64,000 nt of DNA from assembly GCA_022823225.1 (NCBI GenBank), contig JAJDXM010000048.1, positions 1 to 64,000 on the forward strand, given 5' to 3'. Each line of letters starts with the position of its first letter. Within the stretch, counting starts at the first letter, position 1. Origin of the DNA: Gemmatimonadota bacterium. Its GTDB lineage: Bacteria; Gemmatimonadota; Gemmatimonadetes; Longimicrobiales; Gaopeijiaceae. The notes below the pieces were generated by a model. The model had not been told where the DNA came from, searched no databases, and saw only the letters and a list, made by a program, of their open reading frames with translations. Positions 1-36,940 of this stretch are shown here, piece by piece. Made by a program: the position numbers and the translations under genes.

Positions 1-749
1 GCCTTTTTTCGCTGGCGCAACAGGTCCGCCCGCAGCGCCGGGAGTCGGTCAAAGGAAGGGTTGGCCTTGCGGATCGTCCGAAGCCAGAACGGCGGATCGT
101 CACGCCGCGCCGCATGGCACTGCACGAAGTCCGCGCCCCCGCCAAGCCACGTTTGGAACCAATGGCCCCCACCCGCCGGGCGAGTACCAAGCGCGACGAT
201 TTTCGAGCCTTCCACCTTCCCGGCCCCCGTGTCGATTGCGGCCAACATTCGGTCCCGCGTTCCCGGCATCCATTGCGCGGGCTCATCCAACAGCGCCAGC
301 CCGAAGACGCGACCATGCGCCCGGCGCGGATCGCAGGACAGCGCCCGGATAGCTTGCCCGGTTTCCTTGCTCCGCAGCATGGACACGTTGGGATCGTCCC
401 TGAACTGCCAGCGCTTCCGGTCGGTCGGGTTGTGTCCGGCCTCTGTCACCATGCGCACCGCATAGCGGTAGATCACGTCCGCTTGCTCGCGGCTCGCGGC
501 CACGATCACGCACTCCGTATGCCGCCGTTTCCCCAACAGGTAGTCCGCCGCCAACCGCCCGGCCAAGTAGCTTTTCCCGTTCGAGCGGGCCACCGACAGC
601 GCCGCCGTTGTCACCCCCGGACTCGCCAGCCCCCGCAGAAACCGGCGTTGCCATGGCAAGGCGGCCAGATTTTTTTTCTGTGGAGCCGTGACAACCCCCC
701 CGGGCGACGGCCCGCCGCCAGATTGGCCGGTGCCATCGGCGGGTTTCAT
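1..749 (-). CDS. Phage terminase large subunit, partial (runs off left edge)
   Basis: ATP-driven DNA packaging motor of a tailed phage; 249 residues are visible and the C-terminal nuclease half lies beyond the window. The ATPase elements are readable: LPWQRRFL near residues 31-38, a Walker A-type ARSNGKS at 54-60, a Walker B LALLDE at 151-156 and a coupling motif ALGTRP at 186-191. The ATG at 749 is the first ATG in frame. The frame stays open back to a TAG at 881-879, so a non-ATG start further upstream is possible. It is the last of four minus-strand genes in this phage block. Family assignment rests on motifs and is firm at the level of terminase ATPase. Confidence 0.85.
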   Translation of the reverse strand, partial: MKPADGTGQSGGGPSPGGVVTAPQKKNLAALPWQRRFLRGLASPGVTTAALSVARSNGKSYLAGRLAADYLLGKRRHTECVIVAASREQADVIYRYAVRMVTEAGHNPTDRKRWQFRDDPNVSMLRSKETGQAIRALSCDPRRAHGRVFGLALLDEPAQWMPGTRDRMLAAIDTGAGKVEGSKIVALGTRPAGGGHWFQTWLGGGADFVQCHAARRDDPPFWLRTIRKANPSFDRLPALRADLLRQRKK

Positions 750-879
750 GGGCCGGGCCGACAGACTCCCGCGCGCCAGCAGCGCCAGCAGAACCGCGCG
801 GGCGGGTACGGGCGACCGTCCCAAAGGGTCCAGCGCCCGCGACCGGGGAAGATGCGTTGTAGGGCCATACAGGGGAATC

Positions 880-900: not shown

Positions 901-1005
901 TCGCCTCTTGGCCTCCATGCTGGCGGCGATCCGCTCCAACGCCTTTGCAATCCGTTCGAGCGCGGCCCGCAGCAACTCGCGTTGCCGGAAGTCCGCGCCG
1001 TTCAT
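898..1005 (-). CDS. Small 35-residue phage protein, function unknown
   Basis: A short ORF whose ATG overlaps the TGA of the preceding gene (ATGA at 1005-1002), a sign of translational coupling. The product is almost entirely one amphipathic helix with regularly spaced Leu/Ile/Ala and many Arg, Lys and Glu (for example LERIAKALERIAASMEAKRR at the C-terminus). It ends with TAA just before the terminase region. It could be a small helical packaging or regulatory protein, but no family is recognised. Confidence 0.55.
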   Translation of the reverse strand: MNGADFRQRELLRAALERIAKALERIAASMEAKRR

Positions 1006-1247
1006 GCGTCGATGAGGGGGAACCGGGCCGACGCTTCGCCCGGCGGTATCTGGCGGAGCGTTCGGACGGCGCGGGACACGTCGCGCCCTTCGGAGCGGAG
1101 TAGTAGCCAGTCGTCACCGAAGCGGGCCAGCCTGACCCAACACAGCCCTTCGCCCGCTTCGTCTATTGCGGTGACTTCGCGGGCATGGACGGCCCGCCCG
1201 TATGCCTTCCCGATGATCGGCCCCGCTCCGTTCGGCTTCGTTTCCAT
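1002..1247 (-). CDS. Phage-region hypothetical protein, 81 aa
   Basis: No family recognised. The ATG at 1247 is preferred because AAGGAAAG sits about 6 nt upstream; an in-frame TTG at 1280 would add 11 residues. The sequence is a mixed alpha/beta small domain with a WVRLARFGDDWLLLR core. It lies between the 280-residue phage protein and the coupled 35-residue ORF, in the same direction as the terminase, so it probably belongs to the same phage transcript. Confidence 0.6.
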   Translation of the reverse strand: METKPNGAGPIIGKAYGRAVHAREVTAIDEAGEGLCWVRLARFGDDWLLLRSEGRDVSRAVRTLRQIPPGEASARFPLIDA

Positions 1248-1322: not shown

Positions 1323-2165
1323 TCAGGGTCGTCTTGCCGTTCTTGCTGTCGGTGTAGTCGCGCGCTTCGAGTAGCAACCGGCGCGCAGTTCGAAAGCCTT
1401 CGCTTCGGCCTGTTCGGCCCTAGCCAGCGCGGCCTGTTCGGCTTCGGCGTGAGCCTTCACCGTGTCGCGCAACTCCAAGACTTCGCGCTCAAGCTGGCGG
1501 TTCCGGCGTTTGAGCGCGTCCACCTTCGCGGCCCAGGCCTGCAACTCCTCGAACAGGTCGTTTGGCGTCATGATGGGATTCCAGTTGATCCGGTCCAACT
1601 TGGCCTGCTCTTCCGGCGTCCGGTTACGCCGGTTCCGCTCGCGGATCACCGCCAGCGCCTTCCTAACACTACCGGACGGCTTCACGGCCCGCCAGTCTTC
1701 GCGGCCCAACTGTGCGTATGCGTAGATCGTCGAACGCCTCCACTTGCACCGGCCAGACTTCCGCAGGTCCGCTATCAGGCTGTCCACCGGCCAGGCTTCC
1801 CGCTTCGCCGTGTCTAACGCGTTAGACAGCCACCGGCCAGCCTCCCACGTCGCCCGTAGCTTCGCCATGCTGGCCCGGCGGCATTGCCTGTAGTGCTCAA
1901 CGAGCCCGGCCACGAAGTCCGCTTCCGAACCGGGCGAGTCTAACGCGTTAGACAGGGGGTCAATGCGCGCCCCCGCGCGCGCGCGGGCGAGCGGTTCCGG
2001 CGTCCCTTGGTGCTCCGGTCCCGGTTCGGTGGAACCGCATTGCGGACACATCCAACCGGGCATCCCTTCGGGCGAGTTGGGCCACTCCACCATGGGCGCG
2101 CCGCCACAGGTGGGATCGGGAGTTTGACCGGGAGCGGTCGCGGCGTTAGCTTCGTCATGCCTCAT
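1323..2165 (-). CDS. Phage-region protein with CxxC knuckle and coiled coil, 280 aa
   Basis: The ATG at 2165 is chosen because AGAAAGGGG precedes it by a normal distance; an in-frame upstream start at 2207 lacks this. The N-terminal third is Pro/Gly-rich with one CPQCG element near residue 40. A central region (GRWLSNALD to VRKALAVIRERN) resembles the helical DNA-binding style of DUF3102-like plasmid/phage proteins, but this is only a similarity of pattern. The C-terminal part, about residues 190-265, is a Glu/Ala/Arg-rich coiled coil. The motif SNALD occurs twice, and each copy is encoded by a perfect DNA palindrome. It may be a DNA-binding regulator; function is not established. Confidence 0.6.
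   Translation of the reverse strand: MRHDEANAATAPGQTPDPTCGGAPMVEWPNSPEGMPGWMCPQCGSTEPGPEHQGTPEPLARARAGARIDPLSNALDSPGSEADFVAGLVEHYRQCRRASMAKLRATWEAGRWLSNALDTAKREAWPVDSLIADLRKSGRCKWRRSTIYAYAQLGREDWRAVKPSGSVRKALAVIRERNRRNRTPEEQAKLDRINWNPIMTPNDLFEELQAWAAKVDALKRRNRQLEREVLELRDTVKAHAEAEQAALARAEQAEAKAFELRAGCYSKRATTPTARTARRP
1811..1828. repeat. Perfect 18-bp palindrome inside phage gene
   Basis: TGTCTAACGCGTTAGACA reads the same on both strands. A near-identical copy lies 127 bp away at 1938-1953. Both are within coding sequence and encode LSNALD. Confidence 0.8.
1938..1953. repeat. Perfect 16-bp palindrome, second copy
   Basis: GTCTAACGCGTTAGAC, the 16-bp core of the palindrome at 1811-1828. The repeated palindrome suggests a binding site for a dimeric protein such as a phage repressor or partition-type protein. 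A parS site of the usual ParB family would have a different core (TTTCACGTGAAA). Confidence 0.8.
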
Positions 2166-2229
2166 AACGAGCCCCTTTCTCGTTGGGGGTGGCCCCGTCG
2201 AACGCACAGGAACGGCGGGGGATTGGATC

Positions 2230-2261
2230 GAGCCCCGTCACTTGCCGGTGAAGCGGGGCTC
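2230..2261 (+). terminator. Strong hairpin, possible terminator
   Basis: GAGCCCCG pairs with CGGGGCTC across a loop that itself can pair (TCAC with GTGA). A short T-run (TTT) follows on the plus strand. Read in the minus direction it would lie in the leader of the 280-residue phage gene. It may be a boundary terminator or a structured phage leader. Confidence 0.5.
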
Positions 2262-2406
2262 TTTCCGTAGGTGCCTACCGGGCATCGTACAGCCCAACGG
2301 GGGAGTTTGGAAGGGGCGCGCCCCGAATCGGTGCCGATTTCGAGCCTTCGCCCGCGCGGTTCGGTCGCGGATTTTCAGAATGTCGCGCGTTACTTGAAGT
2401 CACCGG

Positions 2407-2437
2407 CCCTAACGCTTTGTACAGCAACGGGTTAGGG
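2407..2437. repeat. Inverted repeat CCCTAAC/GTTAGGG near dif-like site
   Basis: Seven-bp arms CCCTAAC and GTTAGGG are separated by 17 bp that contain TGTACA at the middle. It lies about 30 bp from the dif-like site. The arms resemble the TAACGC palindromes found elsewhere in the phage block and could bind an accessory recombination or regulatory protein. Confidence 0.45.
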
Positions 2438-2467
2438 ATCACCGTAGATAGCCCGAACCTCCGTGCG

Positions 2468-2495
2468 GGTTCGCATAATATGTATTATGTAAAGT
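2468..2495 (+). other. dif: dif-like XerC/XerD recombination site (probable prophage att site)
   Basis: The 28-bp site has a left arm GGTTCGCATAA, a 6-bp centre TATGTA and a right arm TTATGTAAAGT. Known dif sites have a XerC arm like GGTGCGCATAA, a TGTATA-type centre and a XerD arm like TTATGTTAAAT or TTATGTAAACT, so both arms match closely. It is an AT-rich island in a GC-rich sequence and sits where phage genes give way to chromosomal genes. Phages and integrative elements that exploit Xer insert at dif, so this is probably both a chromosome-dimer resolution site and an att junction. Whether the site is functional is inferred. Confidence 0.75.
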
Positions 2496-2580: not shown

Positions 2581-3777
2581 TCAGTCCTGGCGGAACAGCT
2601 CCTCGACCCGCGCCGCCAGTCCGTTGCCCAGCCGCGCCTGCGACAGGTTCGCCACGATGGCGACGATCACCCCGGTGTCGCGGTTCAGGGTCATGACGGT
2701 GATCCCGCCCACCGAGCCTCCGGTATGCGAGACGATCGACTCCCCGTGGTCGTTGGCGGTCGAGCGCCAGCCAATGCCGTAGCCGGTCTCGGACCCGTCG
2801 GCGAGCGTCTGGGGCTCGAAGAGCAGCGCCAGGGTCTCCGCCTCCAGATACCCGGGCACGCTGTGTGCGTTGGCGAAGCGCAGCATGTCCTCCGGCGTCG
2901 ACAGAAACCCCCCGCCCGCCCACTTGTAGCTGTTGTCGACGTAGGGAGCGTTGACCGCGCCCCCGTCCTCGCCCCTCACGTAGAAACGCGTGCGGTGCGG
3001 GATCACCGGACGCACCTCGTCGGCCATGGTGCCACTCATCTCTAGCGGCCCGAACACCACGTCGTCCATGTAGTCCAGGAACGGCTCCCCGCTCGCGCCT
3101 TCGACGACCGCGCTGATCAGGTTCCAGCCATAGGAGGAGTACGAGTACTCGGTGCCGGGCTCGCTGATCAGCGAATCGTCCTGGAAGATTGCAAGCCCCG
3201 AAAGCACGTCCGGATAGGACGCCATCGAGAAGTTCTCCCTCCCCCGGTAGTGGCGCACGCCAGCGATGTGGCCTGCCAGCTGCCGGGTGGTCACCGGCCA
3301 CCGCTTCGCAGGCCACACAGGCACGTACGTCCCGACAGGTGCATCCAGGTCCAGGGCGCCGTCTTCGACGAGGTGCGCGACCGCGGCGGCCGTGAACGGT
3401 TTGGACACGCTCCCGATGCGGAACCTGGTCTCTGGCGTGACTCTAACCTGATGCGTCAGATCGGAGTATCCAAATCCCTCTGACCAAATGACATCCGGCC
3501 CCCGCCCGACGGCCACGGACATCCCTGGGATGCCTTGGGCCTCCATGAGCGAATCGATGAGCGCGCGGGCGGAAGCGATCGCGTCGCCATAGCCCTCGGC
3601 CGCGTGCGTTCCGGGGTTGCGTCCTCCGGCAGGGTCTCCGGCCGGGGCCCCGCAAGCGGCCAGGAGGACGGCGGCGAGCCACGGGACGGCGGATTGCGCG
3701 GTCTTCGGATGGCGTGGCGTCCGACCCGAGCCGCTCCGGTCCGGATCAACTGTAAAGAGAAGATTACAAAATGTCAT
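2581..3777 (-). CDS. Serine hydrolase, beta-lactamase class C / S12 family, probable lipoprotein
   Basis: Family members are periplasmic or membrane-anchored D-Ala peptidases or esterases that act through an acyl-serine. The SxxK motif SVSK, a Tyr-containing motif in YSSYGWN and the C-terminal HTGG triad element are all present in order. A hydrophobic segment ending LLAAC is a lipobox. The start is uncertain. ATG 3777 is used, but it lies inside a promoter-like element, and ATG 3822 overlaps the proline dehydrogenase stop as ATGA. Both give an unusually long stretch before the lipobox, and no ATG/GTG/TTG lies closer in frame. A sequence error near the N-terminus is possible. Confidence 0.85.
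   Translation of the reverse strand: MTFCNLLFTVDPDRSGSGRTPRHPKTAQSAVPWLAAVLLAACGAPAGDPAGGRNPGTHAAEGYGDAIASARALIDSLMEAQGIPGMSVAVGRGPDVIWSEGFGYSDLTHQVRVTPETRFRIGSVSKPFTAAAVAHLVEDGALDLDAPVGTYVPVWPAKRWPVTTRQLAGHIAGVRHYRGRENFSMASYPDVLSGLAIFQDDSLISEPGTEYSYSSYGWNLISAVVEGASGEPFLDYMDDVVFGPLEMSGTMADEVRPVIPHRTRFYVRGEDGGAVNAPYVDNSYKWAGGGFLSTPEDMLRFANAHSVPGYLEAETLALLFEPQTLADGSETGYGIGWRSTANDHGESIVSHTGGSVGGITVMTLNRDTGVIVAIVANLSQARLGNGLAARVEELFRQD
3749..3777 (-). promoter_or_regulatory. Promoter-like element ATGACA-17-TACAGT
   Basis: Minus-strand -35 ATGACA (3777-3772) and -10 TACAGT (3754-3749) with 17-bp spacing. The same two boxes with the same spacing lie in front of fabF. The spacer carries TTACA and TGTAA elements. 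It would drive the serine hydrolase, but the expected transcript start falls inside its reading frame, as discussed for that gene. Confidence 0.5.
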
Positions 3778-3818: not shown

Positions 3819-4757
3819 TCATCTGCGGCTTGTCGGCAGGAGGTTGCGCATGACGAAGCCGATGTTGGCGGGGCGCTCCGCCAGCCTGCGCACATACCAG
3901 GGGAACCAGTGCGCACCGTAGCTGATCAACACCCTTACGCCCTTCTTCGCGGCAGCGAGCCGGTCCTGTTCCCCGTCGCCGATCCCGTAGAGCATCTGGT
4001 ACTCGTAGGCGTCGCTGTCCACGCCGTTCTCGTCGGCCCACGCGTCGATTCTGCGGATCAGCGCGGTGTCGTGAGTCGCGAATCCGGCACGCAGACCCGC
4101 GCTGCGGGCATCCGGGGCGAGCATCCGGCACGCCAGATCGAAGAACGCCCGGTCCACGTCGGCCTTCGCCGGCAGCGCGACCTCGGCCGGCTCGGCGTAG
4201 GCTCCCTTGACCAGCCGAATGCCGGGGCCCAGCGGCACCAGCGATTCGAGGTCGTCGGGGGTCCTGTGGAGGTATGCCTGCAGGCAGACGCCGAAGTTGG
4301 GATGGTCGGAACGGATGGAACGGTAGAGATCGAGCGTCGGATCGACATACCGGCTGTATTCCATGTCCATCCACACCCAGTTTCCAAGCGCCTCGGCGGC
4401 CTCCGTGATCCGGCGCAGGTTCTCCTCGGCCACGCCGATCCCGAGATCCAGCCCCAGGTGGGTCGGCTTGACCGAGAGTTCCGCGTCAAGTCCCGCCGAA
4501 GCGACCTGCCCCGCCGCGTCCACGTAGTGGTTCGCGACCGCGCGCGCCTCGGCCTGGTCCGCAACGTTCTCGCCGAGGAAGGTGATGAGCGTGGTGATGC
4601 CGCGTCTGCGTTCGAGGATTCCGGCCGCGTCCAGCGCGTGTTCCAGCGTTTCGCCGGGCATGAACCTGCGGGTGGCCCGTTTGACGAAGCCGAGTCTGGG
4701 CAGCGTGTTCTTGCACCAGGAGTTTTCCGAGATCCACAGAAGCGTCGATCGTATCAT
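3819..4757 (-). CDS. Proline dehydrogenase (monofunctional)
   Basis: Oxidises proline to pyrroline-5-carboxylate with FAD and passes electrons to the quinone pool. At 312 residues it has the length of the stand-alone bacterial enzyme rather than bifunctional PutA. The PRODH barrel is recognisable from RLVKGAYAEP, EYQMLYGI and the C-terminal YGAHWFPWYVRRLAERP region with its conserved substrate-binding arginines. The ATG at 4757 opens with MIRSTLLWISENSW; extending the frame upstream gives unlikely Arg/Ser-rich sequence. No P5C dehydrogenase gene lies beside it. The stop is overlapped by a possible serine hydrolase start. Confidence 0.9.
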   Translation of the reverse strand: MIRSTLLWISENSWCKNTLPRLGFVKRATRRFMPGETLEHALDAAGILERRRGITTLITFLGENVADQAEARAVANHYVDAAGQVASAGLDAELSVKPTHLGLDLGIGVAEENLRRITEAAEALGNWVWMDMEYSRYVDPTLDLYRSIRSDHPNFGVCLQAYLHRTPDDLESLVPLGPGIRLVKGAYAEPAEVALPAKADVDRAFFDLACRMLAPDARSAGLRAGFATHDTALIRRIDAWADENGVDSDAYEYQMLYGIGDGEQDRLAAAKKGVRVLISYGAHWFPWYVRRLAERPANIGFVMRNLLPTSRR

Positions 4758-35375: not shown

Positions 35376-36296
35376 CTACCGCGCGGGATCCGGCCCCCCG
35401 CTTCGCGGATGGAAGCGTCGGTGGGTCTCGCGCAGGTACTCCCGGTCGAGGTGCGTGTAGATCTGGGTGGTGGAGATGTCCGCGTGGCCGAGCATCTCCT
35501 GCACGGCGACGAGATCCGCGCCGCCCTCCAGCATGTGCGTGGCACAGGAATGCCTGAGCGTGTGCGGTGAAACCCGCCGCATGATCCCCGCGCGCTCCGC
35601 GCCGCGCGCGACGATCGTCCAGACCGACATCCTGCCCAGCCGCGTGCCACGCTGGTTGAGGAAGAGTGCTCCACCGCCCCGTCCGCGGTCCAGCTCCGGG
35701 CGCACTCCCGCGAGATACCGCGCGACGACCCGCAGCGCTGCGGCGCCGACGGGCACGATCCGTTCCTTGCCTCCCTTCCCGAAGACCATGCAGCACTCAT
35801 GCTCCGGGTCCAGATCGGCCAGCGACAGCGCGGTCAGCTCGCTCACCCGCATGCCGGTGGCGTACAGGAGTTCGAGGATGGCGCGGTCTCGCCAATAGAC
35901 CCTGGAGTCGGGGTCCACCGCCTCGACGACCCGCGCGGCCTCGTCCCGACTCAGGAATTCCGGCAGCTTCCTGGTTGCGGCGGGACGGTCCATGCGGTCG
36001 GCGGGATTCTCCCTCACGATCCCTTCGCCCGCGAGAAACTCGAAGAAGGCCCGCAGCGCGGACTGGGTCCGGCGGATCGAGACCGGTGCCCTTCCCCGAT
36101 TGCGCAGATGCACAACGTAGTCCCGCAGGACGAGGTGGTCGATTTCGTCCGGAGAATCAACGTCGCCACGCTCGTCCAGGTACCCGAGGAACCGTCTCAG
36201 GTCGCTCCGGTACGCGTCGCAGGTACGGGGGCGCAGACCCCTTTCGAGCGCGAGATAGTCCAGGAAGGGCTCGACATGGTACCGCCGCTCCAGCAT
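35376..36296 (-). CDS. xerD: Tyrosine recombinase XerD
   Basis: Resolves chromosome dimers at dif with XerC. The 306-residue protein has the SAM-like N-terminal domain (FLDYLALERGLRPRTCDAY) and the catalytic domain with Arg150 (ATGMRVSEL), Lys177, His245 and Arg248 (HTLRHSCATH), His271 and Tyr280 (GHADISTTQIYTH). Length and the NPAD and LPEFLSRDEA segments fit XerD rather than a phage integrase. ATG 36296 places the start as in known XerD; ATG 36320 is an alternative. It matters here because a dif-like site with phage genes lies at 2.47 kb. Confidence 0.92.
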   Translation of the reverse strand: MLERRYHVEPFLDYLALERGLRPRTCDAYRSDLRRFLGYLDERGDVDSPDEIDHLVLRDYVVHLRNRGRAPVSIRRTQSALRAFFEFLAGEGIVRENPADRMDRPAATRKLPEFLSRDEAARVVEAVDPDSRVYWRDRAILELLYATGMRVSELTALSLADLDPEHECCMVFGKGGKERIVPVGAAALRVVARYLAGVRPELDRGRGGGALFLNQRGTRLGRMSVWTIVARGAERAGIMRRVSPHTLRHSCATHMLEGGADLVAVQEMLGHADISTTQIYTHLDREYLRETHRRFHPRSGGPDPAR

Positions 36297-36328
36297 GCCG
36301 CCCTTCGCCTCCCGGGTCATCCGCGCCG

Positions 36329-36940
36329 CTACCCGGCTCCGGGTCGGCGGCCTCGCCACCACAGCCAGGCCACAAGCAGGGCGAGCACGACCGACACCGC
36401 CAGCAGCATGCGTTGTGTTCGTGCCATCGCCGCGACCACCGCATCCAGATTGTCCCCCGCGATGAAACCCAGCCACACGAGGACGCCGTACCAGATCGCG
36501 GAAGCGGCCAGCAGCGGGGGGACGACCCTGGCCGGCCCAAGTCCCGCCGCGCCGGCGAACACCGGGACGAGGGCCCGGAAGCCCGGAAGGAATCGTCCGG
36601 CGAAGATCGCCGCCACGCCCCAGCGCTTGTAGAAGGCTTCCAGCCGGCCCCATTGATGATCCGGGATCAGCCGCCGGCCGCGTCCCGTGCGGAAGAAGTC
36701 ACGCCCGTAGCGTCTGCCCAGAACGTATACCCCAAAAGCGCCTGCCACGTTGAATGACCAGACGACGGCGAAAGCCGCTCCGGCGTTCAGCGTTCCCAGA
36801 CCGGCGATGAATCCGCCGACCAGGATGAAGGTGTCGGCCGGGATGGCGGGAACGATGTTCTCGACCGTCGCCCCGAACGCAAGGACGACATACACTGCGA
36901 GAGGCGGCAGCTCCGTCAGCAGCTCAAGCGCATCGTCCAC
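36329..36940 (-). CDS. DedA/VTT-family membrane protein
   Basis: 203 residues with the DedA pattern: VLAFGATVENIVPAIPADTFILVGGF with its conserved Glu and Pro, then the F.GRFLPGFRALVPVFAGAAGL signature (split by FYKRWGVAAIFA) and three C-terminal helices. DedA proteins move phospholipid head groups or undecaprenyl phosphate across the inner membrane. It lies 32 bp upstream of xerD in the same direction. Confidence 0.9.
   Translation of the reverse strand: MDDALELLTELPPLAVYVVLAFGATVENIVPAIPADTFILVGGFIAGLGTLNAGAAFAVVWSFNVAGAFGVYVLGRRYGRDFFRTGRGRRLIPDHQWGRLEAFYKRWGVAAIFAGRFLPGFRALVPVFAGAAGLGPARVVPPLLAASAIWYGVLVWLGFIAGDNLDAVVAAMARTQRMLLAVSVVLALLVAWLWWRGRRPGAG

Follow-up and report, generated by a model that had tools for sequence, protein, structure and literature searches.

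A capsid-forming, satellite-like element in the dif site of a Gemmatimonadota genome that probably exploits the Xer recombinases of its host

How did a block of phage genes that lacks an integrase come to lie directly beside a dif site in a sponge-associated member of the Gemmatimonadota? The question arises at the left end of a 64,000-nucleotide stretch (hereafter the window) that forms the start of contig C8 in the assembly of genome G000. Here, a 28-bp sequence consisting of a XerC arm, a 6-bp centre, and a XerD arm, which the original prediction had recognized as dif-like, separates phage genes on its left, among them that of the large terminase (TerL; phrog_9, E 4.8e-21), from chromosomal genes on its right. 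The sequence, GGTTCGCATAA-TATGTA-TTATGTAAAGT, occupies exactly positions 2468-2495 and is followed by two conserved genes:

2468..2495, plus strand: dif as restored at the element's right end (attR), with the XerC arm at 2468-2478, the centre at 2479-2484, and the XerD arm at 2485-2495
2581..3777, minus strand: chromosomal gene of the serine beta-lactamase family, conserved right neighbour of dif (PF00144, 5.8e-69)
3819..4757, minus strand: chromosomal proline dehydrogenase gene, next conserved neighbour, syntenic in relatives (PF01619, 7.9e-30)

Judged from its sequence context, the 28-mer is the chromosomal dif site, as indicated by a single copy per genome, conserved neighbours, and a switch of GC skew in two complete relatives. 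It has only one match in the 4.19-Mb assembly (up to three mismatches allowed) and is absent from shuffled window sequences, which means that it is not expected by chance. With the same tolerance, it is present in 20 of 148 relatives (the own genome counted), always as one copy, and other members of the genus possess dif in the same place with four to eight mismatches. The site is typically flanked by C0 (a YfgM-like TPR gene) and the PF00144 beta-lactamase gene, the latter followed by proline dehydrogenase; the beta-lactamase-family genes that adjoin dif in nine relatives are 65-79% identical. About 17 further genomes of the genus have dif beside C0 and free of such an insertion; wherever C0 could be placed, the distance between the two is no more than about 250 bp. 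Phage-free relatives carry the 28-mer at the chromosome terminus, the opposite of what would have refuted the original prediction, and the predicted change in GC skew is seen in two single-contig relatives, where the sampled skew switches sign around dif. In G001 (dif at 2,229,587), a positive skew at 2.10 Mb has turned negative by 2.31 Mb; in G022 (dif at 3,700,489), the skew is above zero at 3.53 Mb and below zero at 3.76 Mb.

A longer gap between C0 and dif than in the other relatives is found in G009 and G015. In the latter (C129:1942-2818; locus L065), it comprises 877 extra bp with stretches that look like inverted repeats, which are possibly the remnant of another dif insertion.

Because the window (base 1 of C8) opens inside the TerL gene, the other end of the element had to be traced outside C8. 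The key was the displaced C0, which G000 carries on C50, a second contig of the assembly, and which led to a hybrid dif site beside it (C50:6817-6844, minus strand), GGTTCGCATAA-TATGTA-TTATTCCCAAC (GGTTCGCATAATATGTATTATTCCCAAC). Its XerC arm and centre are like those of dif, whereas its XerD arm is degenerate, so that the second dif copy expected at the far end does exist but is a hybrid; a second full dif is absent from the assembly. The combination of XerC arm and centre occurs at only two places in G000, the window's dif and C50:6826-6842, which are the two ends of the element. The stretch between C50:1 and C50:6816 contains the remaining element genes, starting with the 3' part of TerL, and the whole element spans about 9.5 kb over the two contigs.

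An alignment of the TerL halves with the homologue in L081, the element of genome G015, places about 70 residues (about 210 bp) in the gap between C50 and C8. There is also a change of frame near the end of the C50 part of TerL (about C50:430; locus L055), which may stem from an error of assembly or reflect a genuine defect. Because of the split over two contigs, the missing 210 bp, and the frameshift, the G000 copy may be defective or misassembled, and it is possible that tandem copies of the element lie between C50 and C8. The parts of the element next to the contig break and dif are:

C50:2-733: 3' part of the TerL gene (both halves align to TerL of L081)
3..824, minus strand: 5' part of the TerL gene, cut by the contig start (phrog_9, E 4.8e-21; PF03237 above cut-off)
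1002..1247, minus strand: small element gene encoding 81 aa (gene call; no family match)
1323..2207, minus strand: 294-aa coiled-coil protein encoded at the start of the head operon (open reading frame; no family match)
2208..2467, no strand: non-coding right end of the element, adjoining the XerC arm (no gene called)

Leftwards from dif, the genes encode the 294-aa and 81-aa proteins, TerL, an HNH nuclease, a 162-aa protein, the major capsid protein, an S78 prohead protease, a connector-like protein of 105 aa, and the portal, which are followed by a zinc-finger-like protein, a 75-aa protein, and two small opposite-strand genes that adjoin the hybrid site. The protease (PF04586) scores above cut-off, the portal matches PF04860 (E 2e-8), and the capsid protein has weak matches to phrog_264 and PF05065; several of the head-gene matches are below curated cut-offs and are consistent in synteny. 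The 294-aa protein shows a weak local match to a protein of the G015 element (E 7e-4 in a single comparison); its position and architecture make it, as a guess, a candidate small terminase. In a comparison with a phage collection, the capsid protein has no match, and TerL has only distant ones (28.5% to HK97-type terminases).

Searches of the approximately 9.5 kb for family and profile matches recognized neither tail nor lysis genes, and the element has no detected gene for Stl or replication. The claim that no integrase lies between the phage genes and dif holds for the entire element, which is devoid of PF00589 genes, with about 70 codons of TerL falling into the assembly gap. The proposed tailed phage, by contrast, is not what the genes describe, as the element comprises head and packaging genes only and its relatives are equally compact.

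The host possesses candidates for both Xer recombinases, and the distance of 33 kb originally given for xerD is correct:

35376..36365, minus strand: host xerD (TIGR02225, 332.7 bits with a cut-off of 329.6; best PF00589 match in the genome)

The best candidate for XerC, which scores below the curated cut-off (310 vs. 335), is encoded on C42 beside a gene that reads as hslV. In total, the G000 assembly is rich in tyrosine recombinases, with 34 PF00589 matches, several of them in tandem (C6, C39, and C50:21141-22197).

A search with the capsid protein recovered relatives in 11 of 295 genomes; ten aligned capsid proteins proved too divergent to serve as a joint query. One of them, a Gemmatimonadetes MAG of another species of the genus (G010; JAJDUP010000026.1), harbours a complete element of 10,395 bp at dif, on a single contig of 370 kb and with the same architecture as in G000; these two are the only dif elements known here. 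The G010 element is bounded by a hybrid site with the XerD arm TTCTCGCCAGC on one side and by a full dif on the other. The degenerate XerD arms, TTATTCCCAAC in G000 and TTCTCGCCAGC in G010, contrast with the dif XerD arms TTATGTAAAGT and TTATGTCAAGT. The left flank is almost identical to the empty site of G006 as far as the centre and breaks off in the XerD arm. At the right end, the XerC arm, ACTTCGTATAA, is supplied by the element and equals the dif XerC arm of other species in the genus. As in G000, XerC arm and centre occur exactly twice, at the element ends only. Terminase, major capsid protein, protease, and portal are intact, and the complete element contains no PF00589 gene. It does encode a neck protein and a 539-aa tape-measure-like protein (L090:10056-11675), and no major tail protein was recognized; the complete lack of tail genes therefore applies to G000 only.

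The two elements have in common the two small genes that adjoin the hybrid site (E 9e-14 and 9e-8). Among 395 genomes sampled from the phylum, a profile of the second gene matches only G000 and G010. The two gene products (RHH1 and RHH2) are possibly RHH-like, judging from sequence pattern and a weak Pfam match below cut-off (PF21983, E 0.0022), and the second may contain a zinc motif. Single-sequence structure models of the RHH-like proteins reach a mean pLDDT of 67-68. Viral contigs contained neither RHH1 nor RHH2, nor the G000 dif sequence.

Compact elements with the genes TerL-MCP-protease-connector-portal are present in many MAGs (L091-L126 among them) of Gemmatimonadota, Pseudomonadota, Latescibacterota, Binatota, Chloroflexota, Nitrospinota, and other phyla. 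We read several of these MAGs as sponge-derived from the names or series of their records, and the occurrence of one head-only family in MAGs of several phyla, many of these MAGs from sponge-type series, hints at a cross-phylum spread of satellites in one habitat. All 17 related elements outside dif for which both flanks are visible encode a tyrosine integrase, and neither of the two dif elements does (Fisher's test, 1/171, ignoring relatedness); because several of the 17 are closely related, the count does not represent 17 independent events. None of the loci of the non-dif elements contains dif. In the trees of TerL, MCP, portal, and protease, G000 is the sister of the integrase-bearing G015 (bootstrap 99-100), whereas G010 is placed elsewhere, and no bootstrap tree joins the two dif elements. 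As their head genes belong to different lineages, yet both share the two small genes and lack an integrase, an exchange of the integration module is the best explanation.

The genes on either side of the G015 element (L081; G015:C149, 3639-12858), which has a tyrosine integrase, look like those for pyruvate dehydrogenase E2 and E1-beta. A partial element in G008 (L084) also adjoins an E2 gene, which suggests that this locus is a common hot spot of integration. In a Binatia MAG, a VapE-like gene (L112:10907-12196; PF05272, 2.2e-52) adjoins a related element. VapE-like genes are typical of phage satellites.

Both junctions, the gene content, the lack of an integrase, the empty sites, the second occurrence, and the shared module are directly visible in the genomes. 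We consider it likely (probability about 0.8) that the locus represents a capsid-forming, satellite-like element in dif whose integrase module was replaced by one that exploits Xer; the use of XerCD, the role of the RHH-like pair, the satellite life style, and the dependence on a helper are inferred parts of this reading. The element would bring a dif-like attP with a XerC arm and a 6-bp centre that match dif and a degenerate XerD arm, and the putative recombination of this attP with dif by XerC and XerD of the host would yield a complete dif at the beta-lactamase side (XerC arm of the element and XerD arm of the chromosome) and, next to C0, a hybrid site. With a complete dif left after the insertion, the resolution of chromosome dimers would be retained. 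Integration would be reversible and mediated by XerCD, with the gene pair as a presumed helper; the RHH-like pair would take the place of the integrase/excisionase module of related elements. Upon induction, presumably by a helper phage, the element would be excised and packaged in its own heads, to which borrowed tails are added.

The best of the alternatives, which we nevertheless regard as unlikely, is the remnant of a tailed prophage that integrated at dif with its own integrase and subsequently lost its tail, lysis, and integrase genes. Such decay agrees with the frameshift in TerL of G000 and the neck and tape-measure-like genes kept in G010, but the same compact gene set recurs at many loci in several phyla, and the terminase, MCP, protease, and portal genes of G010 show no damage. 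Moreover, two dif elements of different head lineages would have lost their integrases and nevertheless have one module in common, and the exact hybrid dif at both junctions also argues against a remnant. Slightly less probable is that a different host tyrosine recombinase carried out the insertion, or a helper-phage integrase that recognizes dif by chance; in favour, the 34 PF00589 matches, several in tandem, and the existence of Vibrio prophages at dif with integrase genes (PMC11630473) could be cited. Against it stand the lack of an integrase in the element, an attP with an authentic XerC arm and a 6-bp centre identical to dif, and the XerC arm ACTTCGTATAA supplied by the G010 element, which is identical to that found in dif of other species. 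The least probable case is a chimeric assembly in which the ends of C50 and C8 stem from different elements and the size of 9.5 kb is spurious: both contigs stop inside TerL with about 210 bp missing, but the TerL halves are similarly identical to one homologue, that of L081 (73% and 66%), dif lies between C0 and the beta-lactamase gene in relatives, and the whole arrangement lies on one contig in G010.

If the element in G000 is indeed a capsid-forming satellite that exploits Xer, its integration resembles that of IMEX (integrative mobile elements exploiting Xer). TLCphi, CTXphi, VGJphi, GGI, and LME-1 likewise reside at dif, have no integrase, and restore dif at one end while leaving a modified site at the other, as documented for GGI and LME-1 (PMC9765430). 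The nearest parallel in mechanism is not CTXphi, which had originally been invoked, but TLCphi, whose attP has a XerC site and centre that match dif and a degenerate XerD site, and whose integration needs both recombinases, with XerD acting first (PMC4246890). The same layout of attP is found in G000 and G010. For TLCphi, a later report (cited in PMC9765430) names an activator encoded by the element, XafT. The RHH-like pair at the att end of the dif elements is a candidate for a similar role and probably helps XerCD on the poor XerD arm or sets the direction. The listed IMEX comprise filamentous phages or satellites of such phages, one genomic island, and, from Legionella, a phage-like element, whereas the elements described here encode an HK97-type head, portal, and terminase, and their hosts are Gemmatimonadota. 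They agree with IMEX in having a dif-like attP at dif and no integrase of their own; catalysis by XerC and XerD is predicted from the presence of genes for both.

In gene content, the elements resemble cf-PICI, defined by terminase, HNH, portal, protease, major capsid, and connectors in the absence of tails (as cited in PMC10690885), and cf-PISP, which have the same kind of gene set (PMC13230959). G000 shares with them the head and packaging genes without tails, to which G010 adds the tape-measure-like gene. Unlike cf-PICI and cf-PISP, the dif elements have no integrase and no detected Stl or replication gene. Their genes are in the order TerL-MCP-protease-connector-portal, and they reside at the chromosomal dif instead of an integrase site or a plasmid; the small terminase of cf-PICI has only a positional candidate, the 294-aa protein. 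Since an integrase belongs to the definition of cf-PICI, the element is not filed there; it is IMEX-like in integration and cf-PICI-like in gene content, with a predicted use of helper tails.

Other systems share single traits. The tailless dsDNA prophages at the dif sites of Vibrio (Asemoviridae NO16 and Autolykivirus-like), for which XerCD has been proposed (PMC9966536), are also non-filamentous, but they regularly carry integrase genes (PMC11630473) and have double jelly-roll capsids, whereas the elements described here are of the HK97 type with TerL and portal. The Mulch/Flayer satellites of Streptomyces have their own capsid and packaging genes, and one of them lacks an integration module (PMC10690885); this MiniFlayer appears not to integrate at all, whereas the integrase of the dif elements appears to be replaced by the exploitation of Xer. 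In the open-licence literature, we found no terminase-bearing, capsid-forming element at dif that lacks an integrase, and as far as found, the Xer route into dif is apparently new for capsid-forming satellites.

The odds are about even that capsid-forming satellites gave up their integrase at least twice by means of a portable module that takes over host XerCD and consists of the RHH-like pair and a dif-like attP whose XerD arm is defective, and that the pair represents a novel type of factor that activates Xer or sets its direction. The two candidate Xer accessory proteins are directly testable, and G000 and G015, with sister head genes and different integration, offer a natural comparison. 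Searches for satellites that demand an integrase gene would miss such elements. While most of the Xer-exploiting elements found in the literature are filamentous phages with their satellites, or else tailless phages and islands, those described here have heads of the tailed-phage type, and within a family that otherwise bears integrases, the exploitation of Xer looks like a module that can be swapped.
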